Assembly: GCA_024230435.1 (NCBI GenBank)
Contig: JAAERL010000163.1
Coordinates: 1 to 53,075 of the forward strand
DNA length: 53,075 bases
DNA from: Desulfobacteraceae bacterium
GTDB taxonomy: Bacteria > Desulfobacterota > Desulfobacteria > Desulfobacterales > Desulfosarcinaceae
Reading direction: 5' to 3'
The notes below the pieces were generated by a model. That model was not told the DNA's origin. It did no database searches and saw nothing but the letters and a program-made list of their open reading frames with translations. This document shows positions 1 through 52,945 of this stretch, piece by piece (position 1 is the stretch's first letter; every line of letters begins with the position of its first letter). The position numbers and the translations under genes were made by a program.

Positions 1-94
1 AAAAAAATTCAAATTTCAAGTGGATATAAAAATAGCATGGGTGCGTCAACCCGGGTGCATTGGAAAAAGCCGACCGTATTTTCAAAGTAGGGTT

Positions 95-256
95 TAGGCG
101 ATTTCTGTTAAAGAATATACCACCTTGTATGTCTTTTTTCCTTTCTTTTTCGTTATGCCAAAGCCCGAATACGTTAAGTATGCAAACTTTGGCACGCCTT
201 GAATACGAAAAAAAATCCTGCTCAATCTGGTATATTCTTTTCCGCCAATCGCCTTA
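95..256 (+). repeat. Family A long-hairpin intergenic repeat, copy A1
   Basis: The element starts TAGGCGATTT and ends AATCGCCTTA, so its termini are inverted repeats. The palindrome continues inward: GAATATACCA near the left end pairs with TGGTATATTC near the right end, and TGCCAAAG pairs with CTTTGGCA around the centre. Near-identical copies lie at 14104-14265 (plus) and 16409-16571 (minus), with a diverged copy at 22479-22657. The open frame that crosses it is not a gene. The gene upstream is outside the window, so its context cannot be read. Confidence 0.88.
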
Positions 257-2233: not shown

Positions 2234-2325
2234 TAAGAGCCTGTTTGGGAATTATTAAATCGGCTGCAAAAACGCGACAACGGTCCACAATGACGCAAAT
2301 TTTCGACAAATAGGCCGGCTATTCA
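2234..2325 (-). repeat. Family B long-hairpin repeat, truncated copy B1
   Basis: On the plus strand it begins TAAGAGCCTGTTTGGGAA, then a TTATTAAAT stretch and a segment matching the inverted form of the copies at 4304-4470 and 29698-29863 (ATGACGCAAATTTT, then CCGGCTATTCA). Homology stops near 2325, so roughly half of the unit is present. Confidence 0.75.
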
Positions 2326-4303: not shown

Positions 4304-4470
4304 TAAGAGCTTGTTTGGGAAAGAAAAAATTTAGTGAAAAAAGGCCGATGGCGTGGCCAAGATGTCTCAAATTTGAGATGAATAGCCGGTCTATTTGTCG
4401 AAAATTTGCGTCATTTTGTACCGTTTTCGCGCTTTTGCAGACGATTTAATAATTCCCAAACTGGCTCTAA
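4304..4470 (+). repeat. Family B long-hairpin repeat, full copy B2
   Basis: The ends are TAAGAGCTTGTTTGGGAA and TTCCCAAACTGGCTCTAA. Internally, sequence around CCAAGATG...CATTTTG and the GAATAGCCGGTCTATTTGTC core matches 29698-29863 closely. The whole unit is an imperfect palindrome. It directly abuts the family C element that begins at 4475. Confidence 0.85.
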
Positions 4471-4474
4471 GGAT

Positions 4475-4651
4475 CTTAGAAGATGCCAATTTAGACGTTA
4501 TTGAGCTTAGATTTGGATTCGTTTTTAAGGTGTGCCGATGGGTGCATACTGATTATGTACTAATTGTCTGTACACATTGACGCAACACAAAAAACGAATC
4601 ATAGGACAAACAAAAGCGGTATAGCCCGCATCTTCCATGACCCTAAGATAG
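4475..4651. repeat. Family C long palindromic repeat (two facing arms)
   Basis: The left arm, read on the minus strand, contains GCACCCATC, AAAAACGAATCC and GGCATCTTC. The right arm, read on the plus strand, contains CATTGACGCAACA, AAAAAACGAATC and CGCATCTTCCATGACC. The arms are inverted copies of each other, and similar arms recur at 9990-10183, 11620-11697, 50587-50646 and 52870-52945. No gene lies here; the region up to 4781 is otherwise featureless except for the GAF gene's ribosome-binding site. Confidence 0.68.
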
Positions 4652-9989: not shown

Positions 9990-10183
9990 TGGAAGCTGCA
10001 AATATTGCGCTCTTGCCTGTATATATCTACAGGTGGTTTTGAATCCGGTTTCGTGCATTACGCCAATGGGCAAAGACCAATGATACTTAAAAATAGATAC
10101 ATAAAATTGGTATGCACCCATCTACGTGGCTTGAAAACGAACACAAATCCGGCGAAATAACGCTATATTTGCAACTTGCAATG
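9990..10183. repeat. Family C long palindromic repeat, copy C2
   Basis: The left arm has GCAAATATTGCG, GAATCCGG and TTCGTGCATTACG. The right arm has GTATGCACCCATC, CTTGAAAACGAA and CCGGCGAAATAACGCTAT, then TTTGCAACTTGC. The right arm closely matches the minus-strand left arm at 4475 and the element at 50587. It fills the gap between the acyltransferase and the transporter gene. Confidence 0.62.
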
Positions 10184-12665: not shown

Positions 12666-13358
12666 ATGGCGTTGAGCTGTAAGCATATTAACTTTTATTA
12701 TCCCGGAACTGACAGTCTTATTTTTAAGGATCTTTCGCTGGACATTGTCAATCCGGGATTACATGCTATTTTCGGTCCCTCCGGGGTTGGAAAGACTTCA
12801 CTGGCTCGTTTGATTTGCAAAGAACTCACGCCTTCAAAAGGCCTTATCCGGACCCCGGATATCAATGCATTGCTGTATGCTTATAACATGGAGCGCTTGC
12901 CGGATTGGTCAAGTATTGACCGTCATCTGGAGCGTATCACACCAGAGCATAATATTGCCCGTAAGCAAGCCCTCGTAAAACATTTTGGTTTATTGCCGGT
13001 ATTGAACCAGCGTTTTGGCCAGCTTTCTCTTGGCCAGCAAAACCGTATTAATCTGGCACGCTATCTGGTGCAGGATTTTGACATGCTGATTATGGATGAA
13101 TGCCTGGCCAATGTTGATGAAAAAACCCGGGAACATATTTTGCTGACCATCAAGGATATGTTCCCCCAACTCTTTTTTGTTTATATCAGTCATAACGTAG
13201 CAGAGGTGGCAAAGTTTTGCAGCCGGATCTGGGTACTGCGCACACCGGGCCATCACCCCCAAACCTGTTGCATAAGAGGACGGGACTTTAAAAATGGTCA
13301 GACTTTGGATCGGCAAGCCTTTGAGAAAACCATGCTGGAGATCATGAATGCTTCTTAG
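12666..13358 (+). CDS. ABC transporter ATP-binding protein (NMT1/nitrate-sulfonate type importer)
   Basis: About 230 residues. Walker A is GPSGVGKTS (37-45), the signature LSLGQ (120-124), Walker B is LIMDE (D144, E145) and the H-loop is H176. The segment where the Q-loop glutamine should be reads YAYNMERLPDW, with no Gln visible, which is unusual. It overlaps the permease gene by 11 bases, so the two are translationally coupled. A permease and a binding-protein gene follow, making a complete importer. AAAGGA lies seven bases before the ATG. Confidence 0.92.
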   Translation: MALSCKHINFYYPGTDSLIFKDLSLDIVNPGLHAIFGPSGVGKTSLARLICKELTPSKGLIRTPDINALLYAYNMERLPDWSSIDRHLERITPEHNIARKQALVKHFGLLPVLNQRFGQLSLGQQNRINLARYLVQDFDMLIMDECLANVDEKTREHILLTIKDMFPQLFFVYISHNVAEVAKFCSRIWVLRTPGHHPQTCCIRGRDFKNGQTLDRQAFEKTMLEIMNAS

Positions 13359-14100
13359 ACGCATGTATCAATTTGGCCTGATTTATTTTTCCGGCATAGC
13401 GTTTTTATTTTTGGTGAAATACAGCCTTGGACTATCCGATTATGTCATTCCGGGCCCTGGCGCAACATGGCAAATCGCCGGTCAAGTGGCATTGCGTTAT
13501 GCCCGCGATGTTTCCAATACGCTCGCAGTAGCAGTCGTTGGTCAATTTGTGTCTCTTTTTTTTGCATTTATCGTTGGTATTTGCGGCCGTCAGGCCACTT
13601 GGTTCGGATCATTAATCAAGGTCGCGGCATATAACGTACAGGCCTATCCAATAGTCGCCATTGCGCCGATTTTGTTCATATTGTTAGGGGACGGCTTTTT
13701 TACCCGTCTGCTGATTGCTGCAATGATTTGCTATTTTCCCTTGCTGCTTTCCATACTTGGTATCATGTCCGAACCGGTCATCGATATTGAGCATTTTTAT
13801 CGCCAAACCCAGCGCATGCGATGGCAACTGGAAGTTAAAATAAGAGCTTTTGAGAACTTGCATAAACTGACAACCGTAATTTCCGGCAGTGCGACTCTTG
13901 CCATGGCCGGTACAATTGTGGCGGAGTTTATTGCCGCCAATGCCGGAATCGGTTACAGCATAAGGATAGCTCTTTATCAAAGTGATTTGGGAAAAATTTT
14001 GGTTGCCCTTTTTATCATTGGTATAACGGTTTCGCTTTACCAGGGTTTGCTTGAGCGAATCGGATATGTGATTAAGGCGATTTGGGGGCGTTCACAATAA
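13348..14100 (+). CDS. ABC transporter permease
   Basis: About 250 residues with six predicted membrane helices of the binding-protein-dependent permease family. The C-terminal EAA-like loop (ENLHKLTTVISGSATLAMAG) and the TIVAEFIAANAGIGY stretch are typical of SsuC/TauC/ThiX-type inner-membrane permeases. It overlaps the ATPase gene by 11 bases. Family A repeat A2 starts three bases after its stop codon and separates it from the binding-protein gene. The start may be the ATG at 13348 or that at 13363. Confidence 0.92.
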   Translation: MLLRRMYQFGLIYFSGIAFLFLVKYSLGLSDYVIPGPGATWQIAGQVALRYARDVSNTLAVAVVGQFVSLFFAFIVGICGRQATWFGSLIKVAAYNVQAYPIVAIAPILFILLGDGFFTRLLIAAMICYFPLLLSILGIMSEPVIDIEHFYRQTQRMRWQLEVKIRAFENLHKLTTVISGSATLAMAGTIVAEFIAANAGIGYSIRIALYQSDLGKILVALFIIGITVSLYQGLLERIGYVIKAIWGRSQ

Positions 14101-14103
14101 GCT

Positions 14104-14265
14104 TAGGCGATTTGTGTTAAAGAATATACCATCTTGCATGTCTTTTTTCCCGTCTTCTGTGTTATGCCAAAGGTCGAATACGTTAAGTATGCAAGCTTTG
14201 GCATGCCTTGAAGACGAAAAAAAATCCTGCCCAATCTGGTATATTCTTTTCCGCCAATCGCCTTA
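14104..14265 (+). repeat. Family A long-hairpin repeat inside the ABC operon, copy A2
   Basis: It is nearly identical to A1 over its whole length, with the same TAGGCGATTT...AATCGCCTTA ends, GAATATACCA/TGGTATATTC arms and TGCCAAAG/CTTTGGCA core. It begins three bases after the permease stop and ends just before the AAGGGAG ribosome-binding site of the binding-protein gene, in the sense orientation. A TTG inside it opens the binding-protein frame but is not a credible start. Confidence 0.92.
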
Positions 14266-14282
14266 GGCGAAGGGAGATCGTT

Positions 14283-15311
14283 ATGACCGGTTTTGCTCAT
14301 TTTCGAATAAGGCTCTTGCAAGCTTTCAAGACCATAAGCTCCAATTGGATACTTAAAGCAGTTTTTACAATCTTTGTGTGCATTATTGCCGTAAGCGCCC
14401 AGGCGGAAGATAAAATCACTTACCGGCTTAAATGGCTGATAAACATGTCCACAGTTGGAGATCTTTACGCCAGGGATCTGGGGTATTTCAAGGCCAAAGG
14501 TATGACCGTAAATATTAAACCCGGCGGACCGGAAAGGGATGCTATCCGGGAACTCGAGCTTGGCTATGCCGATTTTGGGGCCGCTTCGGCCGACCAGGTT
14601 ATCCGGGCATTGGATAAAGGCGCGCCGCTTGTGGTTGTGGCGCAGCTATTTCAGGTCAATCCTTTGCAATGGATTTATCGTTCCAGTGGCATGAAGCTGA
14701 CATCTTTAGATGCCCTGCGCGGCAAGGCCATAGGTATTACCTATGGAAAAAACGACGAAATTATTATGCAAACACTTCTGTCTCAGGCCGGTATAAAACA
14801 CAATCAAGTCCGATTTTTCAGTGTCCGGCTCGATTATACCCCTTTTTATAAGGGAGACGTTGAATTATGGCCGGTATACATCAACACCCAGGGAGTTGAA
14901 ATCGCAAAACGGTTAAAAAGTGCTGGTGAACAAGTATCATTTTTCAGGCCTGACCGGTTTGGCGTCCGGTTTGTAGCCAATTCGGTGGTTACTTCGCGCC
15001 GTATGGCAACGAAACATCCGGATACCGTCAAACGCTTTATTCAAGCCCTGTTAAATGGCTGGGGCGATAGTCTTGATCCCGCTAATGCTCAAAAGGCGCT
15101 ATCAATTATAAAAAAATATGACCGTGATGCTTCTGATGATGTCTTAAAAGCCCAATTGAAAGCCACACGCAGCCTGATTGTGCCGGGGGCGGGCAAAAAG
15201 GTCGGCATGATAGACCGGGATGCCTGGAAGCAAACCGAAAAGATTATGCTGACTCATGGACAGATAAAACGGCCGGTAAACGTCACAACGGTTTTGTCGC
15301 CCGTGAATTGA
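14283..15311 (+). CDS. NMT1/ThiY-like ABC transporter substrate-binding protein
   Basis: About 343 residues. An N-terminal hydrophobic segment (LKAVFTIFVCIIAVSAQA) is a signal peptide ending near residue 43. The mature part has the NMT1/SsuA fold: KWLINMSTVGDLYARDLGYF with KGMTVNIKPGG, then YADFGAASADQ and GKAIGITYGKNDE. The closest likeness is to binding proteins for thiamine precursors or riboflavin, but the substrate cannot be fixed. I use the ATG at 14283 with its AAGGGAG site, not the TTG upstream inside repeat A2. Confidence 0.9.
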   Translation: MTGFAHFRIRLLQAFKTISSNWILKAVFTIFVCIIAVSAQAEDKITYRLKWLINMSTVGDLYARDLGYFKAKGMTVNIKPGGPERDAIRELELGYADFGAASADQVIRALDKGAPLVVVAQLFQVNPLQWIYRSSGMKLTSLDALRGKAIGITYGKNDEIIMQTLLSQAGIKHNQVRFFSVRLDYTPFYKGDVELWPVYINTQGVEIAKRLKSAGEQVSFFRPDRFGVRFVANSVVTSRRMATKHPDTVKRFIQALLNGWGDSLDPANAQKALSIIKKYDRDASDDVLKAQLKATRSLIVPGAGKKVGMIDRDAWKQTEKIMLTHGQIKRPVNVTTVLSPVN

Positions 15312-15316
15312 ACTTT

Positions 15317-16150
15317 TTATCGCTGGTTGATCTGGTCGTCCAAAATCCGTGAGCGCATCCAAAAAAAACCGGTATTGAGTTTTGAGTCAAATTGCAACAT
15401 TCGATCCGTATCCTGGCTCCGCCATATATAACGTTCTTCGCCGCTGTTTGCTTGGACGCCTTGCCCGTAGTGATCAAAAACCGATTTTTTCAGAAGCCGG
15501 TAGGCATAGGGCCCTTCTGTCCAGAACATGATGGAAAAAAGTTTGTTACGCCAGAAGCCATAGACAATGCCGTCCAATCTGGCGCGGCCCAGGCTCAGCG
15601 GATCATCAGGGCGATGGTATTGATCAATGCCTTGGTAATCGGAGTCTTTTTTAATAAAAACAAGTCCCGGAATCTGTTCTGGAGGCATTTGCCAGGTTAA
15701 ATCCTTCAAACCGGTTCCTGCTATGGATTTAACAGGGGCTGAAATGTTTTCGGGTTCTGCTTCCTTGCGTGGGGCAAAGAACTTGAGAAATGATTCGCTC
15801 TTATCTTCAGACGATTTTTTTTCATGGGTTACCGTTTCCGGGGACTGCCCGGATTCAGGGGCAAGAACGGTTTTTTTTTCAGATTTACGCATGATCTGGC
15901 GATCTATCGGCGCAGAACGATTATTCGATGATGGCCTTTGCAAGGGTTGAGCATCTTTGACGATGATGGCATCGACTTCACTTTTATCGATTTTGATGAT
16001 TAATCCGTTCATATTGAAGCGGATTTTACCATTTTCTTCCCATATCTTGTCCGATGTAAATCGTTCTCCGGTCTTTAGTACGATCGTATCAGCTCGCAGA
16101 TTTGTGCAAACCAAAATATGAATGAGCACAAATGCAACAAAATATTTCAA
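15317..16150 (-). CDS. Exported hypothetical protein with a C-terminal conserved domain
   Basis: The first 20 residues (hydrophobic FVAFVLIHILVCTNLRA) look like a signal peptide. Next comes a short beta-rich unit (TIVLKTGERF...GKIRFNMNGL) of a type often found in exported deltaproteobacterial proteins, then a charged low-complexity linker (about 80-145). A globular domain follows with KDLTWQMPPEQIPGLVFI and SRARLDGIVYGFWRNKLFSIM. The start is the TTG at 16150 preceded by AAGGA, nine bases away. It converges on the binding-protein gene with a five-base gap. Function unknown. Confidence 0.72.
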   Translation of the reverse strand: MKYFVAFVLIHILVCTNLRADTIVLKTGERFTSDKIWEENGKIRFNMNGLIIKIDKSEVDAIIVKDAQPLQRPSSNNRSAPIDRQIMRKSEKKTVLAPESGQSPETVTHEKKSSEDKSESFLKFFAPRKEAEPENISAPVKSIAGTGLKDLTWQMPPEQIPGLVFIKKDSDYQGIDQYHRPDDPLSLGRARLDGIVYGFWRNKLFSIMFWTEGPYAYRLLKKSVFDHYGQGVQANSGEERYIWRSQDTDRMLQFDSKLNTGFFWMRSRILDDQINQR

Positions 16151-16249
16151 ATCACTTGTTCCTTATTTATTAGAATTGGCAAACACTCAAAATCGGTGAA
16201 AAAGGCGCTGTTGGTAAGGTAAATCGGCTGTATTGCTGGAAACTTGAGC

Positions 16250-16410
16250 GTTAGAGGCAGTTTGGCAATTTATATCGGCTGTAAACGTGTGGTAACAGGC
16301 CAGCGTGGCGCAAATTTTTGACAAATCGGCTATCGATCTCAAATTTACGATATCCTGGCCTGTCTCTGGCGCGTCTTGGTCAAATTTTCTATTTTCAAAA
16401 CAGACTATTA
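16250..16410 (+). repeat. Family B repeat, diverged copy B4
   Basis: It begins TTAGAGGCAGTTTGGCAA and ends CAAAACAGACTATTA. Internally it has GGCGCAAATTTTTGACAAAT and GGCTATCGATCTCAAATTT, as in the core of copies B2 and B5, but with many changes. It runs directly into repeat A3, so the gap between purB and the exported protein is almost entirely repeat. Confidence 0.6.
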
Positions 16411-16571
16411 AGGCGATTGGCGGAAAAGAATATATCAGATTGAGCAGGATTTTTTTTCGTATTCAAGGCGTGACAAAGTTTGCATACTTAACGTATTCGG
16501 GCTTTGGCATAACGCAGAAGACGGGAAAAAAGACATACGAGATGGTATATTCTTTAACAGAAATCGCCTAA
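16409..16571 (-). repeat. Family A long-hairpin repeat after purB, copy A3
   Basis: It is the reverse complement of A1/A2, with about 95 percent identity to A1 by eye. Read in the purB direction it starts 15 bases after the purB stop codon. The short extra sequence between them (an AAATCGCC/GGCGATTT palindrome with T-run) looks like part of another copy's end. Confidence 0.9.
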
Positions 16572-16586
16572 GGCGATTTTTATCCT

Positions 16587-17939
16587 TTAAAAGTCTGCAA
16601 TGCCGGTATAATTTCCGGGTCTGATTTTTAAAAGTTGAGATTTTACCTCATCGGATACATCAAGAGTCCGAATGAACTTTTCAATGACATGAGCATTGAT
16701 GCTGCCATGTGTTCGTGTCAGCGACTTCAGGGCTTCATAGGGTTCGGGGTAGCCCTCCTTGCGCAAAATGGTCTGTATGGCTTCGGCTACAACGGCCCAA
16801 TTGTTTTCTAAGTCATTGCCAATGGCCTGTTCATTGAGCACAAGTTTATCCAGTCCTCTTAAAATGGACTTAAAGGCGATCAGCGTGTGGGCAATGGGGA
16901 CGCCAAGATTACGGGTAACCGTTGAATCCGTCAGGTCCCTTTGCAATCGTGAAATAGGCAGCTTAGCAGCCAAGTGTTCAAAAAGCGCATTTGCAACACC
17001 CAGATTCCCCTCTGCGTTTTCAAAATCAATGGGGTTGACTTTGTGGGGCATGGTTGAAGATCCTACTTCACCTTTTTTTATTTTTTGTTTAAAGTAATCC
17101 ATGGAAATATAAGCCCACAGATCACGGCATAGATCGATCAGTATTGTATTGATTCGCTTCATGCCATCGCAAAAAGCGGCCAGATTGTCATAGTTTTCTA
17201 TTTGTGTGGTAACACGTGAGCGTTCAAGCCCCAGAATTTCATTAACCAGTTGCTCGGCAAATTCGATCCAGTCCACTTCCGGGTAAGCCACGACATGAGC
17301 ATTCAGATTGCCCGTTGCCCCGCCGAACTTTGCTGAATAGGGAATCGTTTTTAACAAAGCGTATTGTACCGATAGCCGGTTGACAAAAACATACAGCTCT
17401 TTTCCCAGGCGCGTTGGCGAAGCAGGCTGGCCATGAGTACGCGCCAGCATGGCTACTTTTTTCCAAAGCTGGGCCTTGGCCGCCAGGTTTTCTGCGAGCG
17501 TTTGCAAGCATGGCTCAAATTCATTTATCCAGGCTTCTTTTAAAGTCAGTGGAAGCGCAGTGTTATTAATGTCCTGGGAAGTCAGGCCGAAATGGATAAA
17601 TTCTTTGTAATCACCAAGACCGGCGTTTTCAAAGGCGTGCCTGAGATAGTATTCAACAGCCTTGATATCGTGGTTGGTGCTCTCTTCGATTTGTTTGACC
17701 TTCAATGCATCGGATATGCTGAAATTTTCATAAATAGATCTTAAAGATTCAGCTTTTTTAAGCGTGACGCTCTTGAGTTGGGGTAAGGGAATCTTGCATA
17801 GCGCAATAAAATATTCAATTTCGACGCGAACCCTGTATTTGATTAAAGCCCCTTCGGAAAAATAATCCGCTAAATTTGAAACGGCCTTTCTGTATCGGCC
17901 GTCAACCGGTGAGATCGCTTCCAATGTGGTCAGATCCAT
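16587..17939 (-). CDS. purB: Adenylosuccinate lyase
   Basis: A 450-residue member of the fumarase/aspartase superfamily, close in length to E. coli PurB. Its conserved features are THGQPASPTRLGKEL, the FGGATGNLNAH region and the flexible catalytic loop GSSTMPHKVNPIDFE near residues 290-305. It splits adenylosuccinate to AMP and SAICAR to AICAR in purine synthesis. The start ATG at 17939 follows an AAAGGGG site. Family A repeat A3 lies directly after its stop. The upstream region holds a multi-hairpin sequence (see 18079-18243). Confidence 0.97.
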   Translation of the reverse strand: MDLTTLEAISPVDGRYRKAVSNLADYFSEGALIKYRVRVEIEYFIALCKIPLPQLKSVTLKKAESLRSIYENFSISDALKVKQIEESTNHDIKAVEYYLRHAFENAGLGDYKEFIHFGLTSQDINNTALPLTLKEAWINEFEPCLQTLAENLAAKAQLWKKVAMLARTHGQPASPTRLGKELYVFVNRLSVQYALLKTIPYSAKFGGATGNLNAHVVAYPEVDWIEFAEQLVNEILGLERSRVTTQIENYDNLAAFCDGMKRINTILIDLCRDLWAYISMDYFKQKIKKGEVGSSTMPHKVNPIDFENAEGNLGVANALFEHLAAKLPISRLQRDLTDSTVTRNLGVPIAHTLIAFKSILRGLDKLVLNEQAIGNDLENNWAVVAEAIQTILRKEGYPEPYEALKSLTRTHGSINAHVIEKFIRTLDVSDEVKSQLLKIRPGNYTGIADF

Positions 17940-18078
17940 CCCATGCCCCTTTCATCTGCGATAGCGATTAACATATTGATATAATATGAAAAATGAATAT
18001 CTCAAAGTTAATTTACGTTTGAATTATAGGCGGCCGTGTAACCCAGTGTCAAGTAAGCACGCAAAGCGACTTCAGAAA

Positions 18079-18243
18079 AACCGCATTTGGAACAAATCAG
18101 GGCTCAAACGCCCTTTGACATCAACTTGATGGCTTGTAGCATGCTGATATTACATAAGCCAAAAAAAAATAAACCAGCTACTATTTAGGCCAAATGCGGT
18201 TGCCCTGCAAAGTATCTGCTCACGGCAGTTGATTGCCGGGCAA
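18079..18243. other. Multi-hairpin structured intergenic region
   Basis: A perfect 12-bp inverted repeat, AACCGCATTTGG (18079-18090) and CCAAATGCGGTT (18190-18201), encloses three smaller hairpins: AGGGC/GCCCT, CATCAA/TTGATG and GGCTT/AAGCC. A second inverted repeat, TTGCCCTGCAA / TTGCCGGGCAA (18200-18243), overlaps its edge. This could be a structured RNA, a purB leader on the minus strand, or another long-palindrome element. I could not match it to a known RNA class. Confidence 0.5.
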
Positions 18244-18419
18244 AGCCAATGCAAAAATTTTTAAGATTTAGAAATTTTTAGTATTTGATCATCAAATATT
18301 TGACAAGGCCTTCCAGGGTGTTCCATAGTATAACCTCAATAGGTTATGAGATATTTGCTCTGTTTATTTCATGGTATTTTTCAAAAATATTCATTTGCCG
18401 GTCTTTAAGGTCAACAACT

Positions 18420-19262
18420 ATGGGGTATGTATTCGATTTTAAAGAAGCTCAAGCTTACGCTCATTGGGTTTTGCAGAAGCGAAACCGATGGACGGCCGAG
18501 CTGGAAAATGATCTGATGCTTGGTCTTCTCAAGCCGTCCAGAGGCGAGTCGATTCTTAATATCGGCTGCGGGACAGGTGCGAGCACGTTGCCGTTACTTG
18601 ATTTAGGGCTCAATGTAACCGGTATTGATCCTTCTCCATATATGCTCGATATCTCACATGCAACCCTTGGCGACACAGTGGATCTGTATCGCGGGTTTGC
18701 AGAGGAGTTGCCGTTTGATGATAATTCTTTCAATCACACTTTTTTTTTCATCAGCCTGGAATTTGTCGACAATCCGATAAATGCTCTTAACGAGGCTTGC
18801 CGGGTGGCCAAAGATAAAGTCTTTATTGGATTTATTAACCGATTTGCATTAAAAGGCTTGCAACTCAGGTTGCAGGGCCTGTTTAGTTCTACGATTTATG
18901 ATAAAGCCCGCTTTTTCAGTGTATGGGAACTCAAACGCCTGTGTCGGCTTACAGCCGGACATTTACCGATTGCCTGGCGAACGGTATGCCAATTGCCTAA
19001 TCCATCAGCGAAAATGATTCGATCCTTTGAACGCTCGCCTTTTGTACAGCGATGTCCCTTTGGAACTTTTGGCGGTATGGTAATGACCCTGATACCCAGA
19101 TTACGCACGCGGCCTCTTGCAATTCGTTATCCGGATGCTGAACGCCAAAGTATTGTAACCGGTTCGGCGCCGGTAAGGACAATCTTTGAAAACGGTGATT
19201 TTACCTTTAATAGTATAAAAACCAGGGATTACCTGGTATCTATCGGGCCTAAAGGAAAATAA
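18420..19262 (+). CDS. Class I SAM-dependent methyltransferase
   Basis: About 280 residues. SAM-binding motif I is ILNIGCGTG (46-54), followed by GLNVTGIDPS (63-72). VDLYRGFAEELPFDDNSFNHTFFFISLEFVDNP forms the motif II region. The methyl acceptor is unknown. The start is the ATG at 18420 with a TAAGG site upstream; the open frame extends further up only from a TTG and its extra residues look unconserved. It ends four bases before the radical SAM gene and is probably co-transcribed with it. Confidence 0.88.
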   Translation: MGYVFDFKEAQAYAHWVLQKRNRWTAELENDLMLGLLKPSRGESILNIGCGTGASTLPLLDLGLNVTGIDPSPYMLDISHATLGDTVDLYRGFAEELPFDDNSFNHTFFFISLEFVDNPINALNEACRVAKDKVFIGFINRFALKGLQLRLQGLFSSTIYDKARFFSVWELKRLCRLTAGHLPIAWRTVCQLPNPSAKMIRSFERSPFVQRCPFGTFGGMVMTLIPRLRTRPLAIRYPDAERQSIVTGSAPVRTIFENGDFTFNSIKTRDYLVSIGPKGK

Positions 19263-19266
19263 GCAA

Positions 19267-20286
19267 ATGGAAGCTTATCTTTATGAAACCTTGGAAAAAA
19301 GCAAGGTCCGTTGTTTTTTATGCAGCCATCAATGCCTTGTCAATAATGGCAAACGCGGACTGTGCGGTGTCCGCGAAAATCGGCGCGGTAAGCTTTACTC
19401 GCTTGTCTATGGCCGTTTGATCGCCAGCAATGCGGATCCAATCGAAAAAAAACCACTGTTTCACTTTATGCCGGGCAGCCGTTCGTATTCAATTGCGACA
19501 GCCGGATGTAATTTCAGATGCAAGTTTTGCCAGAATGCGGATATTGCTCAAATGCCAAACGATCAGCAAGGCTTGATTATCGGTACCACATTCAATTGTG
19601 AGGGAGTTGTCAAAGATGCCCTGAACCAGAATTGCCAGAGCATTTCTTATACGTATACTGAACCGACCATCTATTTTGAATTTGCCCATGATACGGCGAA
19701 ACTTGCCCATAGTTACGGTCTCAAAAATGCGTTTGTAACCAATGGCTATATGAGTTCCAAAGCCCTGGAAATGATCTCGCCTTATCTGGATGCAGCCAAT
19801 GTGGATCTGAAGTCTTTTTCCGATAAATACTACAAGCAGATGTGCGGCGCCCGGCTTGCGCCGGTCAAGGAAACTCTCAAGCAGATGAAAGCGATGAATA
19901 TCCTTGTAGAAGTAACCACCCTGATCGTACCGGGATTAAATGATGATCCTGAAGAGCTTCACGCCATTGCCGGATTTATCGCTAACGATCTGGGTCCTGA
20001 AACCCCCTGGCATATCAGCCGTTTTCACCCTACCTACCAATTGACAGACCGGGATTGCACACCTGTGCAGACGTTGAAAACAGCACGGGACATCGGATTG
20101 GAAGAAGGGCTGCGCTATGTTTATCTGGGAAATGTGCCGGGCCATGATGGCGAAAGCACCTCGTGCCATCACTGCGGATCGCTTTTAATAGAACGCTGGG
20201 GATATGTTGTGCAAAAAAATCGAATCAAAGAAGGAGCCTGCCCCGGGTGCAAAACAGTAGTTTACGGCATTGATATTTCAGCATGA
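19267..20286 (+). CDS. amrS: AmmeMemoRadiSam-system radical SAM enzyme
   Basis: 339 residues. An N-terminal Cys-rich part (C16, C19, C23, C33) precedes the radical SAM motif C81-x3-C85-x2-C88 (ATAGCNFRCKFCQN). SAM-binding strands follow: SYTYTEPTIYFE, NAFVTNGY and DAANVDLKS. The length and CPC-rich layout match the family linked to the AMMECR1 and Memo proteins. Its precise reaction is unsettled. Neither AMMECR1 nor Memo is in the window; the close upstream neighbour is a methyltransferase. Confidence 0.9.
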   Translation: MEAYLYETLEKSKVRCFLCSHQCLVNNGKRGLCGVRENRRGKLYSLVYGRLIASNADPIEKKPLFHFMPGSRSYSIATAGCNFRCKFCQNADIAQMPNDQQGLIIGTTFNCEGVVKDALNQNCQSISYTYTEPTIYFEFAHDTAKLAHSYGLKNAFVTNGYMSSKALEMISPYLDAANVDLKSFSDKYYKQMCGARLAPVKETLKQMKAMNILVEVTTLIVPGLNDDPEELHAIAGFIANDLGPETPWHISRFHPTYQLTDRDCTPVQTLKTARDIGLEEGLRYVYLGNVPGHDGESTSCHHCGSLLIERWGYVVQKNRIKEGACPGCKTVVYGIDISA

Positions 20287-20327
20287 AATGAAGATATCGG
20301 GCAAATTGGCCATTAATGGACGGGCAT

Positions 20328-20357
20328 TAGAGCTTGTTTGGCAAATAGGGCTCCTAA
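20328..20357. repeat. Short remnant of a family B end (B7) at a gene end
   Basis: TTAGAGCTTGTTTGGCAAATAGGGCTCCTAAAT resembles both tips of a family B element joined. Its right end overlaps the stop codon of the family 2 glycosyltransferase on the minus strand. Confidence 0.5.
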
Positions 20358-21226
20358 ATCTGCGTGTGCTTTTGCGCCAGGCGAATGTAGTGTTGCGCTT
20401 CTTGGTTTCTGGATCGCTTAAGGCAGCCATTTGCATAAATACGGCATTTTTTTTTCAACATGGAAACAGCCGCTTCTTTTTGCCGGTCTGACAAGCAGCC
20501 CGCATCAATTAGTTTACTCAGTGCGGCAATGCGGTATTTATCCAGTTGAGGCATTTTGGACAATTGATCTTCATGACCGCCATGTTTAACGATTAACGGC
20601 GTGGTCAGCAAATAAACAGGGTATTTCCAGCTGATACGCAACCACAAGTCATAATCTTCACATGCAGGCAATTGTTCATCAAACAAGCCCACCTCCTGGA
20701 GCAACTTCTTGCGCATCATGACCGCTGAAGGGCTTACCAGGCACAGGGGCAATGTTTTTTCGAATATATACCCTGAATATTTCCGGTGACGTTTACCCGG
20801 ATTGACGCGCACTCCCATTCTTATCCAGATTTCTTCGGATTGACAAATCATCGCTGATGGATTGCTTTTGAAAAAAGACGTTTGCATTTCCAGTTTTTCA
20901 GGTAACCAGTAATCGTCCGAATCCAACAAGGCCACCAGTTCGCCGGAAGCTGCCCTTATTCCGGCATTTCGGGCTGCGCTGACACCGCGATTGGGTTGGC
21001 AGATGGCCCGTAGCCGGGGGCCATAGCCTGCCAATAGTTCTTTAGTATCATCGGTAGAGCCGTCATCCACGACAATCAGTTCGTAATGAGGATAGGTCTG
21101 GGCAAAAACAGATTCCACAGCCTTTTTCAACATCGTGCAACGGTTGAAGGTGGCAATGACAACAGAGACGAATAAATCGCTGTTTACAGGGCCGCTATCC
21201 GGGGATTTTTGGAGTATGGTTGACAT
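20354..21226 (-). CDS. Family 2 glycosyltransferase (GT-A fold)
   Basis: 290 residues. The N-terminal GT-A core has VSVVIATFNR, VFAQTYPHYELIVVDDGSTD and NRGVSAARNAGI, with the DxD motif in ALLDSDDYW (about residues 95-105). A C-terminal helical part with KK-rich segments follows. The sugar and acceptor are unknown. It stands alone on the minus strand between two plus-strand transcription units; the ribosome-binding site is weak. The stop codon overlaps remnant B7. Confidence 0.92.
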   Translation of the reverse strand: MSTILQKSPDSGPVNSDLFVSVVIATFNRCTMLKKAVESVFAQTYPHYELIVVDDGSTDDTKELLAGYGPRLRAICQPNRGVSAARNAGIRAASGELVALLDSDDYWLPEKLEMQTSFFKSNPSAMICQSEEIWIRMGVRVNPGKRHRKYSGYIFEKTLPLCLVSPSAVMMRKKLLQEVGLFDEQLPACEDYDLWLRISWKYPVYLLTTPLIVKHGGHEDQLSKMPQLDKYRIAALSKLIDAGCLSDRQKEAAVSMLKKKCRIYANGCLKRSRNQEAQHYIRLAQKHTQI

Positions 21227-21482
21227 TTTTTAATATTTAGCACTATTTTATACAAACTGGTGATTGTTGTCTGCTCCCGTATATTTAGAGAATCAAAATT
21301 GAGTACAAGCGTTTAAACAGTTTTTCGCATTTATAGAATGCCTGCAGTCATTATGTCAATTCGGCGGTTGTATCTGCCAATTGTCTAAACTAAAAAACAA
21401 ATCAATTTTTAGTGTACGCCTATGGTATCGCCTTGGCGTTTCTGATAATCCAATCAATTGCTGAAAATAGGAGGAGCGGTTT

Positions 21483-22475
21483 ATGAAAAAGACATTACTT
21501 GCGGTAAGTATCATCATTGCCATGATCTGTGCAGCACTGGGAGCTGATTATATTATTTACGAGGCAAAGGCTGGCTCCGTCAAGTTCGTTACTATAGGCA
21601 CTGGCGGCATCACCGGGGTCTATTATCCAACCGGGGGAAACATCGCTAAACTGGTCAATAAGAAAAAAAAGGAATATAACATTCGCTGCACGGTTGAATC
21701 CACTGGAGGCTCAGTATTTAATGTCAATGCGATAATGGCCGGAGATCTGGAATTCGCAGTGGTTCAATCCGATCGTCAATATCAGGCTATCAAAGGAATG
21801 TCGGAATGGAAAAAGCGGGGTCCGCAAAAGGATTTAAGGGCCGTTTTCAGCATTCATCCCGAATCGATTACCCTGATTGCGGCTGTGGATTCCAATATTA
21901 AAACAATCGAAGATCTAAAAGGCAAACGGGTTAATATCGGCAACCCCGGATCCGGGCAGCGCCAGAACTCTATAGACGCTCTTGAGTCTGCGGGATTAAA
22001 TTACAAAAAAGATTTAAAAGCTGAAAACGTCAAGGCGGCCGAGGCTCCCGGCTTGTTGCAAGACGGCCGTATCGATGCGTTTTTCTACACAGTGGGCCAT
22101 CCCAATGGGGCCATAAAAGAGGCTACCGCAGGAGCACGCAAGGTCAAGATCGTACCGATTACGGGGGTTGATAAAATATTGAAAAAATATCCTTATTATG
22201 CAGAATCCGTAATTCCTGTAAAACACTATAGCGGAGCAGCCAATGACCAGGATGTGAAATCCTTTGGGGTAAAGGCCACATTTATGACCTCGGCAAAAGT
22301 GCCCGATGATATTGTCTATGCCATTACAAAAGAAGTGTTTGAAAATTTTGAACAGTTTAAAAATTTGCATCCGGCATACGAAACAGTTACCAGGCAGGGC
22401 ATGCTCGAGGGGATGACAGCTCCTATTCATCCGGGAGCGATAAAATATTACAAAGAGGTCGGATTGATCAAATAA
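21483..22475 (+). CDS. TAXI-family TRAP transporter solute-binding protein
   Basis: 330 residues. It starts with a signal peptide (KTLLAVSIIIAMICAALGA). The mature part has VTIGTGGITGVYYPTGGNIA, ESTGGSVFNVNAI, LEFAVVQSDRQYQ and GKRVNIGNPGSGQR, which are standard TAXI (TRAP-associated extracytoplasmic immunogenic) motifs. It delivers solute to the fused TRAP permease encoded next. TAXI-TRAP systems are reported to take up organic acids or amino acids; the substrate here is unknown. GGAGG lies just before the start ATG. Confidence 0.95.
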   Translation: MKKTLLAVSIIIAMICAALGADYIIYEAKAGSVKFVTIGTGGITGVYYPTGGNIAKLVNKKKKEYNIRCTVESTGGSVFNVNAIMAGDLEFAVVQSDRQYQAIKGMSEWKKRGPQKDLRAVFSIHPESITLIAAVDSNIKTIEDLKGKRVNIGNPGSGQRQNSIDALESAGLNYKKDLKAENVKAAEAPGLLQDGRIDAFFYTVGHPNGAIKEATAGARKVKIVPITGVDKILKKYPYYAESVIPVKHYSGAANDQDVKSFGVKATFMTSAKVPDDIVYAITKEVFENFEQFKNLHPAYETVTRQGMLEGMTAPIHPGAIKYYKEVGLIK

Positions 22476-22478
22476 GGC

Positions 22479-22657
22479 TAAGGCGATTTTTGTCAACGGC
22501 CATACCGTTTTGTTTATCTTTTTTTTGCGTCTGATTAAGCTGTGCCAAAGCTGCGAATACCTCAGGTATGCAGACTTTGGCACACCTTGAAGACGAAAAA
22601 AAATCCTACGCAATAAGGTATCTGTTTAAGTGTTATATTTTCCCGCCAATCGCCTGA
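22479..22657 (+). repeat. Family A long-hairpin repeat inside the TRAP operon, copy A4
   Basis: TAAGGCGATTT at the left and CCGCCAATCGCCTGA at the right, with TGCCAAAG/CTTTGGCA core arms and the CTTGAAGACGAAAAAAAATCCT segment of the other copies. It has diverged and gained about 17 bp. It begins three bases after the binding-protein stop and ends 18 bases before the permease start, in the sense direction. Confidence 0.85.
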
Positions 22658-22675: not shown

Positions 22676-24745
22676 ATGATCGACAAGCAAAATCCCGCCC
22701 GCAACGATAAAGGGTTCGAAAAAGCTAAAAAACTTGCCCAAGAGGAAGAGGGATTCGGGCGGCGGATCAAAGGCTGGCAAAAGTTTATTGTGCCTGCCGT
22801 TGCCATTGCCTGGAGTCTCTTTCAACTTTCGATCGCCAGTTGGCTGATCCTGGATTCGACTTTCATCAGAGCCATACATCTGGCATTTGCGTTGCTTATC
22901 GTTTTTTTGAATTTCCCGTTATTAAAAAAAGAACGGCTGGGCATTTTTTCTTATTTTTCTATCCACAAACGCATCACCATTCTGGACTCAATTATCGGTG
23001 TTATTGCCGCATTATCCGCGCTGTATATTGTTCTTGATTATGAGGGGATGATCGAGCGCTACGGATTTCCCGAAACACGCGATATCGTTATCGGGATTAT
23101 CCTTATCGTATTGTTGTTGGAAGCCTCGCGCCGGGTAATAGGCCCGGCGTTATCCGTTATTGCGATCTTATTTATTCTTTATGCGTTTATGGGGCCGCAC
23201 ATGCCCGCCGTTTTTGCTTTCAAGGGAGTATCCATCAATCGCTTCATCGGTCAGATGACCATGTCAACCGAAGGAATTTACGGCATTCCACTGGATGTAT
23301 CGGCCACCATTGTCTATTTGTTCGTATTGTTCGGCGCCATGCTGGATAAAGCAGGCGCCGGGCAATATTTTATCAGGCTGGCGTTAAGCATGCTCGGCGC
23401 TTTCAAAGGCGGACCGGCCAAGGCCGCTATTTTGGGAAGCGGGCTGACCGGGCTTGTCTCCGGTTCCAGTATTGCCAATATTGTCACCACCGGAACGTTT
23501 ACCATTCCGCTTATGAAAAAAGTCGGCTATCCCGCAAAAAAAGCGGCAGCCATTGAAGTCGCAGCCAGCACGGACGGTCAGCTGGCGCCGCCTATCATGG
23601 GCGCCGCCGCTTTTATCATCGCAGAATATGTCAATGTACCCTATGTTGAAGTAATAAAAGCAGCCGCTATACCAGCGTTTGCATCTTATGCAGCCTTATT
23701 TTACATCACTCACATCGAAGCCTCGAAACTTGGGTTAAAGGGCATTGCCCGCAGCGAGCTTCCGCCTTTTTTAAAAACTCTTGTTTCCGGAGCGCATTTT
23801 TTACTGCCTTTGGCGATGCTTCTTTATGAGTTGATTGTGGTTCGTCATTCACCCGAAATGGCGGCTTTTAACGCCGTAGGGGTTATGGCCCTGGTGATGT
23901 TTATCCAACGGCCGGTTCAGGCATATTTTCAGAAGAAACCTCTTGCGTCTGCCTTTAAACAGGGGATTGAAGACATTTTTGGAGCGCTGGCCGGGGGCGG
24001 CCGTAACATGGTTTCAGTGGCGCTGGCCACTGCTGCGGCGGGAATTATCGTTGGCGTAGTAGCAATGGGATTGGGAAGCCGTATCACCGAGATTGTGGCG
24101 ATTATCTCCGGTGGAAAAATTTTTTTAATGTTGATCATCACGGCAGTAGCGAGTCTGATTATCGGTATGGGATTGCCCACCACGGCCACCTATATCGTGA
24201 TGGCTTCATTGACGGCTAAAGCACTTGTGAGCGTGGGCGCGGCCAATGATTTTATTGTCCCTCTAATGGCGGCTCATCTATTTTGCTTTTATTTTGGAAT
24301 CTTGGCTGATGATACGCCCCCTGTGGGCCTGGCCGCCTATGCCGCAGCCGCTATCGCAAAATCTGCGCCCATTGCCACGGGAATACAAGGTTTTATGTAT
24401 GATATCCGTACGGCCATTTTACCGTTTATGTTTATTTTTAATGCCGATCTGATTTTAGAAGGAATCAATAGCTGGCCTTTAGGGCTGTTGATTTTTGCCA
24501 TGGCGTGCATCGGAAATTTCGCCTTTGCTTCGGCAACCCAGGGCTGGTTTATCACCCGCAACCGCATCTATGAAATTCCTCTTTTTCTTTGTGTCACCTT
24601 TATCCTGATGCAACCTGGCTATGTCAGCCAATGGCTTGGATTTGCTGAACACAAATACTGGGCATATCTGATCGGGCTGGGCTTGTTCGCGGGCCTGTAC
24701 GGTATTCAAATGCTGAGAAAAAATGCCCGGCGGCCAACGGGTTAA
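22676..24745 (+). CDS. Fused TRAP transporter permease (4TM/12TM)
   Basis: About 689 residues, a fusion of the small (DctQ-like) and large (DctM-like) subunits, with some 18 membrane helices. Conserved parts include GGPAKAAILGSGLTGLVSG, AASTDGQLAPPIMGAAAF and GMGLPTTATYIV. It moves the solute delivered by the TAXI protein, using an ion gradient. The start is the ATG at 22676, placed five bases after GAGAGG; an in-frame TTG lies 18 bases up. Its end overlaps hrpA by four bases, in convergent orientation. Confidence 0.95.
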   Translation: MIDKQNPARNDKGFEKAKKLAQEEEGFGRRIKGWQKFIVPAVAIAWSLFQLSIASWLILDSTFIRAIHLAFALLIVFLNFPLLKKERLGIFSYFSIHKRITILDSIIGVIAALSALYIVLDYEGMIERYGFPETRDIVIGIILIVLLLEASRRVIGPALSVIAILFILYAFMGPHMPAVFAFKGVSINRFIGQMTMSTEGIYGIPLDVSATIVYLFVLFGAMLDKAGAGQYFIRLALSMLGAFKGGPAKAAILGSGLTGLVSGSSIANIVTTGTFTIPLMKKVGYPAKKAAAIEVAASTDGQLAPPIMGAAAFIIAEYVNVPYVEVIKAAAIPAFASYAALFYITHIEASKLGLKGIARSELPPFLKTLVSGAHFLLPLAMLLYELIVVRHSPEMAAFNAVGVMALVMFIQRPVQAYFQKKPLASAFKQGIEDIFGALAGGGRNMVSVALATAAAGIIVGVVAMGLGSRITEIVAIISGGKIFLMLIITAVASLIIGMGLPTTATYIVMASLTAKALVSVGAANDFIVPLMAAHLFCFYFGILADDTPPVGLAAYAAAAIAKSAPIATGIQGFMYDIRTAILPFMFIFNADLILEGINSWPLGLLIFAMACIGNFAFASATQGWFITRNRIYEIPLFLCVTFILMQPGYVSQWLGFAEHKYWAYLIGLGLFAGLYGIQMLRKNARRPTG

Positions 24746-29697: not shown

Positions 29698-29863
29698 TTA
29701 GAGCTTGTTTGGGGAATATAAAATTTAGCGAAAAAGGGCGAGGGCGAGGCCAAAATGTCTTAAATTTGAGATGAATAGCCGGTCTATTTGTCAAAAATTT
29801 GCGTCATTTTGGACCGTTCTCGCGCTTTTGCAGCCGATTTAATAATTCCCAAACCGGCTCTTA
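29698..29863 (+). repeat. Family B long-hairpin repeat, full copy B5
   Basis: TAGAGCTTGTTTGGGGAA at the left and TTCCCAAACCGGCTCTTA at the right form the terminal inverted repeat. Inside, CCAAAATG / CATTTTGG and GCGAG / CTCGC pair around the GAATAGCCGGTCTATTTGTC core. It is the best preserved copy together with B2. Confidence 0.88.
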
Positions 29864-29968
29864 GGCCGGGGTTGTTGACAAATTACCTTCTAACGGTTCC
29901 AAAACCAAAAGACAATCAGAATCGGGTGATTTACAGCAGGCAAACAGACTCTAAAAAGGACAAACGAC

Positions 29969-37833: not shown

Positions 37834-37905
37834 TTAGAGATTGTTTGGGAAATAGAAAATTTAGCTTTTGCAGCCGATTTAATAATTCTCAAACAGGCTC
37901 TTACA
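37834..37905 (+). repeat. Family B repeat, internally deleted copy B6, overlapping a stop codon
   Basis: TTAGAGATTGTTTGGGAA at the left, GCAGCCGATTTAATAATTC and CAAACAGGCTCTTA at the right, with the middle of the unit missing. Its right end, TAAGAGCC on the minus strand, supplies the TAA stop of the NuoF-like gene. Confidence 0.85.
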
Positions 37906-48034: not shown

Positions 48035-48070
48035 GGTGTTATGTTCTTTTCCGCCAATGACCTGATGACT
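48032..48070 (+). repeat. Deleted family A remnant (A7) starting at the ahbB stop codon
   Basis: TAAGGTGTTATGTTC followed by TTTTCCGCCAATGACCTGATG resembles the two tips of family A joined after loss of the middle. The first TAA is the ahbB stop codon. Confidence 0.5.
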
Positions 48071-49483: not shown

Positions 49484-49887
49484 AAGCTGCGATTTTCTTT
49501 ATTCTCCGGTCTTGCTTTCCGTATTTTTTAAATACGTAATGTGATGGTGCTTTAAGTTTTCTTTTCGATTCAACGCTTCAAACAGCAGGTCTGTTTGCTC
49601 GCTCAAGATCATGCGCCGGGATGTTTTTTTTTACAAACCGCGTATGACAAAATAAGGATCAGATAAGTTGAAATATCGTGCTTGTCTTTCGCTCTATTGG
49701 GCTGTGTTTTTTGTTGGCTTTAATATGTAAGGGCATTGGAACTTCCAACTCATTGCTGATAGCCCTATATTTGAATCTGCTTTTATGATCCTAAAAATGC
49801 GTTGATAACTGTGTATTCCACCTAATCGTGCTTATTGACGCAACAAACGCAAACGAGCCTTATGATTAGAGAAAAAAAGGATACATC
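49484..49887. other. Non-coding region with a family C-like fragment
   Basis: ATTGACGCAACAAACGCAAACG at 49833-49854 matches the start of a family C right arm (compare 4574), and TTATGATCCTAAAAATGC at 49782-49799 may be its left edge. Otherwise nothing is seen. AAAGGAT precedes the FHA gene. Confidence 0.4.
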
Positions 49888-50586: not shown

Positions 50587-50646
50587 CTCTGCATTGACGC
50601 GCCTTGAAAATAAAACCAAGACCGGCGTAATAACGGTATGTTTGCA
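50587..50646 (+). repeat. Family C repeat fragment (C3) between FHA and typA
   Basis: GCATTGACGC, CCTTGAAAATAAAACC, GACCGGCGTAATAACGGTAT and TTTGCA match the right arm of C2 (10118-10180) closely. An AGGCGC/GCGCCT hairpin (50582-50604) covers its left end. Confidence 0.65.
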
Positions 50647-50658
50647 TTTTCCAGGACT

Positions 50659-52479
50659 CTAAGTTTTCCTTTTCTCAGCCCTTTTGCGGTCGTTTTCATC
50701 CAGCAGCGCTTTGCGCAATCGAATGGATGCGGGAGTTACTTCCACCAGTTCATCTTCCCGGATAAAGTTCAGGGCGCGTTCGAGAGTCATGGGTTTTACA
50801 GGCGCTAAAATAATGTTTTCATCGCGGCCGGAGGCACGGATATTGGTTAGTTTTTTTTCTTTGCATGGATTGGCCGTGATATCCAATGACCTGTTATGCT
50901 CACCAAACACCATGCCCTTATAAACAGGCTGACCGGGCCTGATAAAAAGCTGCCCCCTGGGCTCAAGATTAAACAAGGCATATGCCACGGCGACACCTTG
51001 GCGGTCCGAAATAATGGAACCGGTGAAACGGTTTGAGAAATCGCCCCGGAAAGGTTCATATCCGGCAAACCGGCTGTTCATAATACCGGTTCCCTTGGTG
51101 TCGGTCAGAAATTCATCCCGGTATCCGATCAGGGCTCTCGAAGGTACAGAAAAGCTCATGCGCACCCGGCCGCTGCCATGATTGGTCATCTGGGTCAACC
51201 GCCCCTTGCGGCCAGACAGCTTTTCAGTGACCACACCGATGAAAGGTTCATCACAATCCACGAAAAGTTCTTCCAAGGGTTCAAGTTTTTGTCCGTTTTT
51301 ATATTTGTAGATAACTTCAGGCCGTCCCACTGATAGCTCGAAACCCTCGCGGCGCATGGTTTCAAGCAAGATTGCCATCTGAAACTCACCCCTTCCCTTG
51401 ACGATGAACAATTCCCGGTTATCGGTTTGCTCCACCTCAATGGCAACATTGCGCAGAGTTTCTTTAAGTAATCGGTCCCTGATTTTTCGCGATTGCACAT
51501 ATTCGCCCTCACGACCAGCCAAAGGAGAAGAGTTAATGGTAAATCGCATGGCTACGGTGGGTTCATCTACACGAATGCGTTTTAGTGCGCGGGGATGCGC
51601 CTGGGTGCAAATCGTATCACCGATACGCACGTTTTCAATTCCTGATAAAACAATGATGTCGCCCGGCTCCGCGGATTTGACCTGTACAAGCGAGACACTC
51701 TCATAGGTTTGGAGCTGGGAAACTTTTAAGGGAATCCTGGTGTTGTTTTCGCTGATACATACCAGCGAGTCATTATTTTTTATTTGGCCGTTGGCGACCT
51801 TGCCCACCGCCAGGCGGCCCAGAAAATCGCTGTAGCCCAGATCCGAAACCAGCATTTGAAAAGGCGCGCCGGGGTCATGAACAGGAGCCGGAATATGTTT
51901 TAAAATCATATCCAACAGAGGATGCAGATTTTGACCTTCTGATTCGAGCTCCGTTTTTGCAATACCATCTCTGCCCACGGCATAAAGGTAGGGAAAGTCT
52001 AACTGGTCTTCCCCGGCTTCAAGATCAATAAATAAATCGTAAATTTCATCGAGCACTTGTTTAGGACGGGCATCCTGCCGGTCGATTTTGTTTATTGCTA
52101 CAATAACCGGCAACTTTGCTGAAAGCGCTTTTTCGAGGACAAACCGGGTCTGGGGAAGCGGGCCTTCCGAAGCATCCACCAATAAAAGGGCGCCGTCGGC
52201 CATGGATAAGGCGCGTTCCACCTCACCGCCGAAATCGGCGTGGCCGGGTGTGTCGATAATGTTGATTTTAATGTTTTTCCAGGTGATAGCGCAGTTTTTT
52301 GCCGCAATGGTGATGCCACGTTCGCGTTCGAGGTCCATATTGTCCAAAAGACGTTCACTGACCTTGTCACCACGGCGCATAAGACCGCTTTGGTGAATCA
52401 TGGCGTCCACCAGGGTTGTTTTTCCGTGATCGACATGGGCGATAATCGCGATGTTTCGAATGGTTGGGTTGGATTGCAT
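50659..52479 (-). CDS. typA: Translational GTPase TypA/BipA
   Basis: 606 residues, the usual length for TypA. G1 is AHVDHGKTTLVD, G3 DTPGHADFGGEVER and G4 NKIDR; domain II and the EF-G-like C-terminal parts follow, ending with the TypA-specific tail. It is a ribosome-associated GTPase needed in stress and low-temperature ribosome assembly. The upstream region is full of repeats; the start has only a weak ribosome-binding site. Confidence 0.98.
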   Translation of the reverse strand: MQSNPTIRNIAIIAHVDHGKTTLVDAMIHQSGLMRRGDKVSERLLDNMDLERERGITIAAKNCAITWKNIKINIIDTPGHADFGGEVERALSMADGALLLVDASEGPLPQTRFVLEKALSAKLPVIVAINKIDRQDARPKQVLDEIYDLFIDLEAGEDQLDFPYLYAVGRDGIAKTELESEGQNLHPLLDMILKHIPAPVHDPGAPFQMLVSDLGYSDFLGRLAVGKVANGQIKNNDSLVCISENNTRIPLKVSQLQTYESVSLVQVKSAEPGDIIVLSGIENVRIGDTICTQAHPRALKRIRVDEPTVAMRFTINSSPLAGREGEYVQSRKIRDRLLKETLRNVAIEVEQTDNRELFIVKGRGEFQMAILLETMRREGFELSVGRPEVIYKYKNGQKLEPLEELFVDCDEPFIGVVTEKLSGRKGRLTQMTNHGSGRVRMSFSVPSRALIGYRDEFLTDTKGTGIMNSRFAGYEPFRGDFSNRFTGSIISDRQGVAVAYALFNLEPRGQLFIRPGQPVYKGMVFGEHNRSLDITANPCKEKKLTNIRASGRDENIILAPVKPMTLERALNFIREDELVEVTPASIRLRKALLDENDRKRAEKRKT

Positions 52480-52691: not shown

Positions 52692-52753
52692 TTAAGGCGA
52701 TTTGCAGTCAAAGAATTTTCCATATAGCCTGTCTTTTTTTGCCAGTCGCCTAA
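52692..52753 (+). repeat. Internally deleted family A copy (A5)
   Basis: TAAGGCGATTTGCAGTCAAAGAATTTTCC at the left and GCCAGTCGCCTA at the right, with a GTCTTTTTTT stretch between, resembles A1 with its middle and right arm lost. Confidence 0.6.
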
Positions 52754-52869
52754 CGGTGCGCAGTTCTTATTTCATTTTAAGTATGAAGTCCAATCAAAAA
52801 AATTTAAAGAGCCTTTTTGGTATTCGAACTAAATGGCCTTTTAAATCTGTTTCGACTGTTGCGCCAAGC

Positions 52870-52945
52870 GCCTAATCAGTATGCACCCTCTTTGCTTTTT
52901 AAAAACGAATTCGAATCTAAGCTACATCTACAGCATGAACTACCG
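52870..52945 (+). repeat. Family C repeat fragment (C4) near the window end
   Basis: AATCAGTATGCACCCTC, AAAAACGAATTCGAATCTAAGCTA matches the minus-strand left arm at 4475-4560. The rest of the stretch to 53075 holds no gene I can support. Confidence 0.6.

Follow-up and report, generated by a model that had tools for sequence, protein, structure and literature searches.

Hairpins at stop codons of a Desulfobacteraceae genome as probable IS5/Tourist-like miniature transposable elements with a folded core

The window, that is, the whole stretch of DNA analyzed here, comprises 53,075 nucleotides of contig JAAERL010000163.1 from a Desulfobacteraceae bacterium (assembly GCA_024230435.1), and it contains long hairpins, termed family A, two of which separate the genes of two transporter operons. 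We conclude, with a probability of roughly 0.85, that the family A hairpins belong to a superfamily of IS5/Tourist-like miniature inverted-repeat transposable elements (MITEs) with a selected folded core. An initial annotation had read them as sense-oriented RNA devices placed directly after stop codons. The counts below settle this puzzle numerically in favor of a transposon whose ends rebuild stop codons and which carries no sense-orientation code.

The genome is available as a 6.13-Mb draft in 1238 contigs. Allowing at most one mismatch, the 3' end motif of family A was matched 364 times (180 + 184) genome-wide, and a reversed control three times. The ends of the element are inverted repeats (GGCGATT/AATCGCC), and the hairpin spans its whole length. 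Flanking triplets could be read in 163 copies (16 of 179 were unreadable), and in 134 of these the two sides bear an identical triplet, either TTA or TAA, representing a 3-bp TWA target duplication; 19 are mixed and 10 have other triplets. A first sample of 109 full copies gave the same picture, with identical TTA or TAA triplets in 88 and one of each in 11. A 3-bp TWA (TNA) duplication is presumably that of IS5/Tourist (PIF)-type elements. The preferred target is YTWAR, as C occupies position -1 in 51% of cases against a background of 14% and G position +3 in 43% against 14%, with Y and R both present in the targets of 92 of the 134 copies. Of 180 full copies, not one is entirely contained in a called gene, and three overlap the end of a gene by 85-122 bp. 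Nearly all full copies (105 of 109) measure 163-194 bp with triplets included. Family A therefore shows the features of a MITE: terminal inverted repeats, target-site duplication, high copy number, intergenic location, and short length. Three length classes can be recognized, again with triplets, at 163-166 bp (50 of 109), 172-183 bp (46), and 190-194 bp (9), a pattern that would fit one or two additions of a segment of roughly 14 bp. Searches on plasmids, with one A copy as query, and on phages, with the element of one relative as query, returned no match.

Gene context was assessed in a larger sample of 121 stretches (2.14 Mb of the 6.13 Mb), mostly picked for holding A copies, with genes called by our own hexamer script instead of a standard caller; for loci in other genomes, the longest open frames were used. 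Context counts leave out the 17 of 180 full A copies without a flanking gene, and the distance test includes 160 copies. In these 160 copies, 39 flanks are at most 10 bp away from a stop codon; the expectation is 24.4 if TWA sites are drawn at random from the same gaps, 9.6 if they are drawn from all intergenic TWA sites, and 9.9 when sites are weighted by target preference. The non-random distance to stop codons noted in the initial annotation is thus real. No flank lies within 10 bp of a start codon, where 5.4 to 6.7 were expected, and convergent gaps hold 48 of the 160 copies, compared with 22.3 expected.

Twenty-four copies were candidates for overlapping a stop codon, and 23 of them could be assessed (the flanks of one, L217, were unreadable). 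The reconstructed empty site is a stop codon in 21 of the 23, and both exceptions have unlike triplets. A stop persists where a copy has inserted into a stop codon because the duplicated TAA, or TA followed by the first G of the element, is itself a stop. Insertion into a stop codon should therefore be harmless in either orientation. As YTWAR holds a stop word on both strands and the duplication plus the first G restores the stop, the element can sit within operons without breaking genes.

Orientation relative to the upstream gene, which the initial annotation regarded as consistently sense, is not favored. Between co-directional genes, 32 full A copies are sense and 51 antisense (n = 83), and flanks within 25 bp of a stop are divided into 28 sense and 24 antisense (n = 52). 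Four families pooled (full copies) give 56 sense and 61 antisense, the narrow gaps with both sides within 60 bp hold four sense and two antisense A copies, which is too few to tell, and 18 loci of other genomes are split into 10 sense and eight antisense. The original observation of four copies in the same orientation has a probability of 0.125 without any bias and is a small-sample effect that disappears in the larger sample. One of these four, a putative remnant (A7) at 48037-48070, is only a 34-nt match of 74% identity and is missed by the family profile at E ≤ 1e-3. Orientation as a functional code is ruled out by the sense and antisense counts in this genome and in the 18 loci elsewhere.

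The two transporter operons were correctly named in the initial annotation. The first copy (14103-14265, plus strand; 157 bp between TTA triplets that are included in these coordinates) lies between an ABC transporter permease gene (13348-14100, plus), which scores 0.2 bits below the Pfam cut-off, and an NMT1-type binding protein gene (14283-15311, plus). It starts 2 bases past the stop codon TAA at 14098-14100 and ends 17 bases short of the next start codon. The second copy (22480-22656, plus) is longer and diverged, and separates a TAXI-type (NMT1_3) binding protein gene (21483-22475, plus) from a TRAP transporter permease gene (DctM, DUF3394; 22676-24745, plus). Its left triplet TAA (22479-22481) lies 3 bases past the stop codon TAA at 22473-22475, its right triplet is TGA, and 19 bases separate the end of the profile match from the next start. 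Folding of both hairpins far exceeds chance (z about -10 and -6), and the first has a folding energy of -64.5 kcal/mol on the plus strand and -71.5 kcal/mol on the minus strand. As for a terminator, no T-run follows the hairpin on the plus strand in the sequence, to which no terminator scan was applied. In relatives, none of 12 TAXI-TRAP pairs and none of 29 ABC permease-binding protein pairs contains the element, and some of these element-free pairs come from genomes in which the family is present at other places. Both comparisons excluded pairs separated by more than 700 bases, and the TAXI-TRAP comparison also excluded matches below 60% identity. An RNA device for transporter operons is thus not supported; a MITE landing at and rebuilding stop codons is.

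Partial matches to the family A profile proved to belong to further hairpin families, which share the core but differ in their ends: P, Q, and R in this genome and others in relatives. The core comprises about 99 nt. A 24-pair structure, drawn up manually after the fold of a single member (L135) and thus not independent of that row, forms in 87.5% of the cells of an alignment of 26 cores, compared with 71.8% after shuffling. Both sides change in 16 of the 24 pairs, in 93 cells compared with 29.3 in shuffled and 18 to 29 in slid alignments. RNAalifold predicted 20 pairs when given the full alignment and no pairs for the core alignment, perhaps due to slight misalignment of the central stems. 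In a larger alignment built from the 55 best of 76 covariance-model matches, the internal-loop runs TTGTC, GTT, and GCCTTG are kept at 90% or more, and mean conservation is 0.78 for unpaired and 0.79 for paired columns.

The core is widespread in the order. At E ≤ 1e-4, 81 of 194 genomes of the order, counting the own genome, and 62 of 121 genera gave a match to the covariance model. At E ≤ 1e-5, the core was found in 102 of 291 genomes of the class, all matches listed being from the same family or order, and in 14 of 297 genomes of the phylum, 12 of which are outside the order. A scan of named genomes gave 11 stretches, of which nine matched a profile (in two cases only a short end was covered) and two, one from a Streptococcus and one from a Desulfosarcina, did not. 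The named carriers confirmed by profile are Desulfosarcina cetonica JCM 12296, a Desulfatitalea metagenome-assembled genome (MAG), and one contig labeled Gammaproteobacteria. The last of these, from a MAG (Site_C14), carries at one end an A-like copy that is nearly full (L266), which represents either transfer or mis-binning. For 24 of 44 loci it was possible to define the ends; the triplets agree in 20 of these and the hairpin measures 156-161 bp between triplets in 22 (the other two measure 136 and 147 bp), and the end sequences differ between loci. One locus (L128) lies inside a long open frame. The order-wide recurrence of the folded core suggests that the fold itself matters, and with a core that covaries across an order, it becomes testable whether a MITE may be under selection for its fold in addition to its ends.

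Searches against Rfam 15 gave no match over the element in the window at gathering score. Among four loci searched at E ≤ 5, two microRNA models matched over elements far below gathering (E 0.24 and 3.6), and 20 loci searched at E ≤ 0.1 gave none over the element. One of the four, L128 of relative G019 (region 1614-2056), has a partial cobalamin match (36.2 bits, above gathering) that starts outside the element and extends into the element's end; a complete cobalamin riboswitch lies further on, as does a c4-2 RNA match. This copy is perhaps an insertion into a riboswitch.

If the fold is selected, the question arises on which strand. A sense-oriented RNA device past stop codons, stabilizing 3' ends or setting the ratio of transporter parts, would account for a strong hairpin, for its placement in two operons after the stop codon and ahead of the ribosome-binding site, and for the real proximity to stops, and the few narrow gaps lean its way (four to two). 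Such a device is nonetheless very improbable, given that neither the 83 co-directional A copies nor the 52 stop-adjacent flanks show a sense bias and that the operons of relatives lack the element. The stem mismatches of resident A copies do not help it either, with 177 G-U and 134 A-C on the plus strand, or 67 and 71 after removal of five subfamily-polymorphic columns. The opposite strand makes a better candidate. Since A-C on one strand corresponds to G-U on the other, an excess of A-C on the plus strand would be in keeping with folding of the minus strand, either as RNA or as single-stranded DNA. This excess is seen in 28 representatives below 85% identity from which the own genome was excluded (19 A-C, 3 G-U, p 0.0009), most clearly in helix 3 (15 to 0), and also in 49 non-own rows (34 to 12) and in all 55 rows (40 to 18). 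The minus-strand core is the more stable one in 28 of 28 representatives, by a mean of 10.2 kcal/mol, and whole hairpins are more stable on the minus strand in 19 of 20 relatives and in 132 of 180 A copies. Together with stem changes on both sides and persistent internal loops, these counts make it conceivable that the minus-strand fold is the working part and the element its vehicle, for instance in aiding transposition or making insertions harmless, a proposal to which we give somewhat less than even odds. The representative rows are related, so the p values are optimistic, and shared loop sequences drive part of the energy difference. Moreover, the first 26-row alignment was balanced (27 G-U, 25 A-C), P copies are divided 29 to 21 on whole-hairpin stability and have more G-U than A-C on the plus strand (91 to 66), so that by their mismatches the resident copies of neither A nor P prefer the minus strand, unpaired columns are on average no better kept than paired ones, and the fold matched no Rfam family. 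The suggestion in the initial annotation that the unit acts as a folded single strand hence receives indirect support from the cross-family covariation and the mismatch asymmetry, but the asymmetry favors the strand opposite to the transporter mRNAs.

Covarying stems may also arise without any selection on the fold. Arm-to-arm correction during replication is a known process for long palindromes and could keep the stems of imperfect ones complementary, in agreement with stems that vary yet stay paired and with unpaired columns that are on average not better conserved. It should, however, erase asymmetric internal loops, which instead persist in the 55 rows, and it predicts no strand asymmetry, contrary to the counts in the 28 representatives, so that we consider it unlikely. 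Under the preferred reading of a MITE superfamily with a selected folded core, an IS5-type transposase would move the element in trans, and insertions at gene ends would survive as harmless, perhaps aided by an insertion preference for gene ends. A folded single strand, RNA or single-stranded DNA and the reverse complement of the orientation first annotated, may be selected in spreading copies, where it would serve the transposition cycle or the host; resident copies seem to drift after insertion. A broader version is rather doubtful. It holds that a phylum-wide mobile superfamily is built around one strand-specific folded core, with ends and stems exchanged or rewritten between lineages, loop motifs and mostly length kept (family A itself includes longer classes), and the folded RNA or single-stranded DNA needed for spreading. 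If true, the superfamily would be a MITE defined by structure and not by its ends.

Several observations weigh against an IS5/Tourist-like MITE with a selected fold. The excess at stop codons goes beyond target preference (26 overlapping copies compared with 5.1 expected); a further contribution would have to come from counter-selection at other sites or from preferential insertion at gene ends. Nominal orientation biases exist, antisense in family A (p 0.048) and sense in full copies of family P (23 to 9, p 0.020); all P copies together give 46 sense and 32 antisense (p 0.14). One of 50 family P copies lies inside a gene. Conservation of the core is unexpected for a plain MITE. An autonomous partner was not found in the third of the draft that was read; many contigs of the draft are broken at copies. 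Of six DDE_Tnp_1 matches in the genome, five are at loci with inverted repeats and none was seen with an A-type end pair, the only ends tested; there was no DDE_Tnp_4 match, and 12 wider-spaced end pairs in the 2.14-Mb sample, judged by gene starts only, hold no evident transposase.

Family A resembles the Tourist/PIF-Harbinger and IS5 (IS1031-type) MITEs, which follow a TWA/TNA target rule, in being short and non-autonomous with inverted ends, a 3-bp TWA duplication, and many intergenic copies. It differs from them in that its folded core is common to many genomes with different ends and in that the partner transposase was not found. ERIC and Correia elements have a target different from that of family A, and the sulfur bacterium Thiomargarita nelsonii, mentioned below, belongs to another phylum. 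Like family A, ERIC and Correia are hairpin MITEs; their sequence differs, and it is in our family that the stems covary and the ends differ between families. A review describes how ERIC and Correia insertions can alter transcripts via RNase E or RNase III and places ERIC at gene 3' ends (PMC10969869). REP/REPIN elements are likewise dispersed extragenic palindromes (PMC3116915, PMC3733652), compared with which the family A hairpin is far longer and has a target duplication. Many-copy MITEs have been described in T. nelsonii, where the authors did not identify the parental insertion sequence and where, unlike in family A, the elements have 10-bp direct repeats or TATA ends (PMC4853749). No paper on this element family was among the matches listed from open-licence literature.

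The window holds further copies. Including the two in the transporter operons, the four full copies of the initial annotation are real; the others lie at 94-256 (plus) and at 16409-16571 (minus), the latter 15 bases past the stop of the adenylosuccinate lyase gene purB (16587-17939, minus), as had been proposed. A partial family A profile match at 4495-4622 (minus) has the ends and core of the related family P (TTAGGGTC...). Further matches are a degenerate relative at 10036-10168 (plus; weak profile match, E 1e-5), partial family P matches at 49728-49860 (minus, 24.8 bits) and 50591-50663 (plus, 44.2 bits), and a weak family A match at 52694-52874 (plus, E 7e-4). In many contigs of the draft (C60, C74, C129, C130, C239, and others), a copy lies no more than about 150 bases from one end, and the family A repeat probably causes fragmentation of this genome's assembly. 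A second inverted-repeat family with the ends AGAGCCTGTTTGGGAA occurs in the window at 4306-4472, 29700-29865, 2234-2325 (minus), and 37836-37903. It is probably another MITE, with no similarity to the core noticed, and in one locus (L044) it directly adjoins an A copy.

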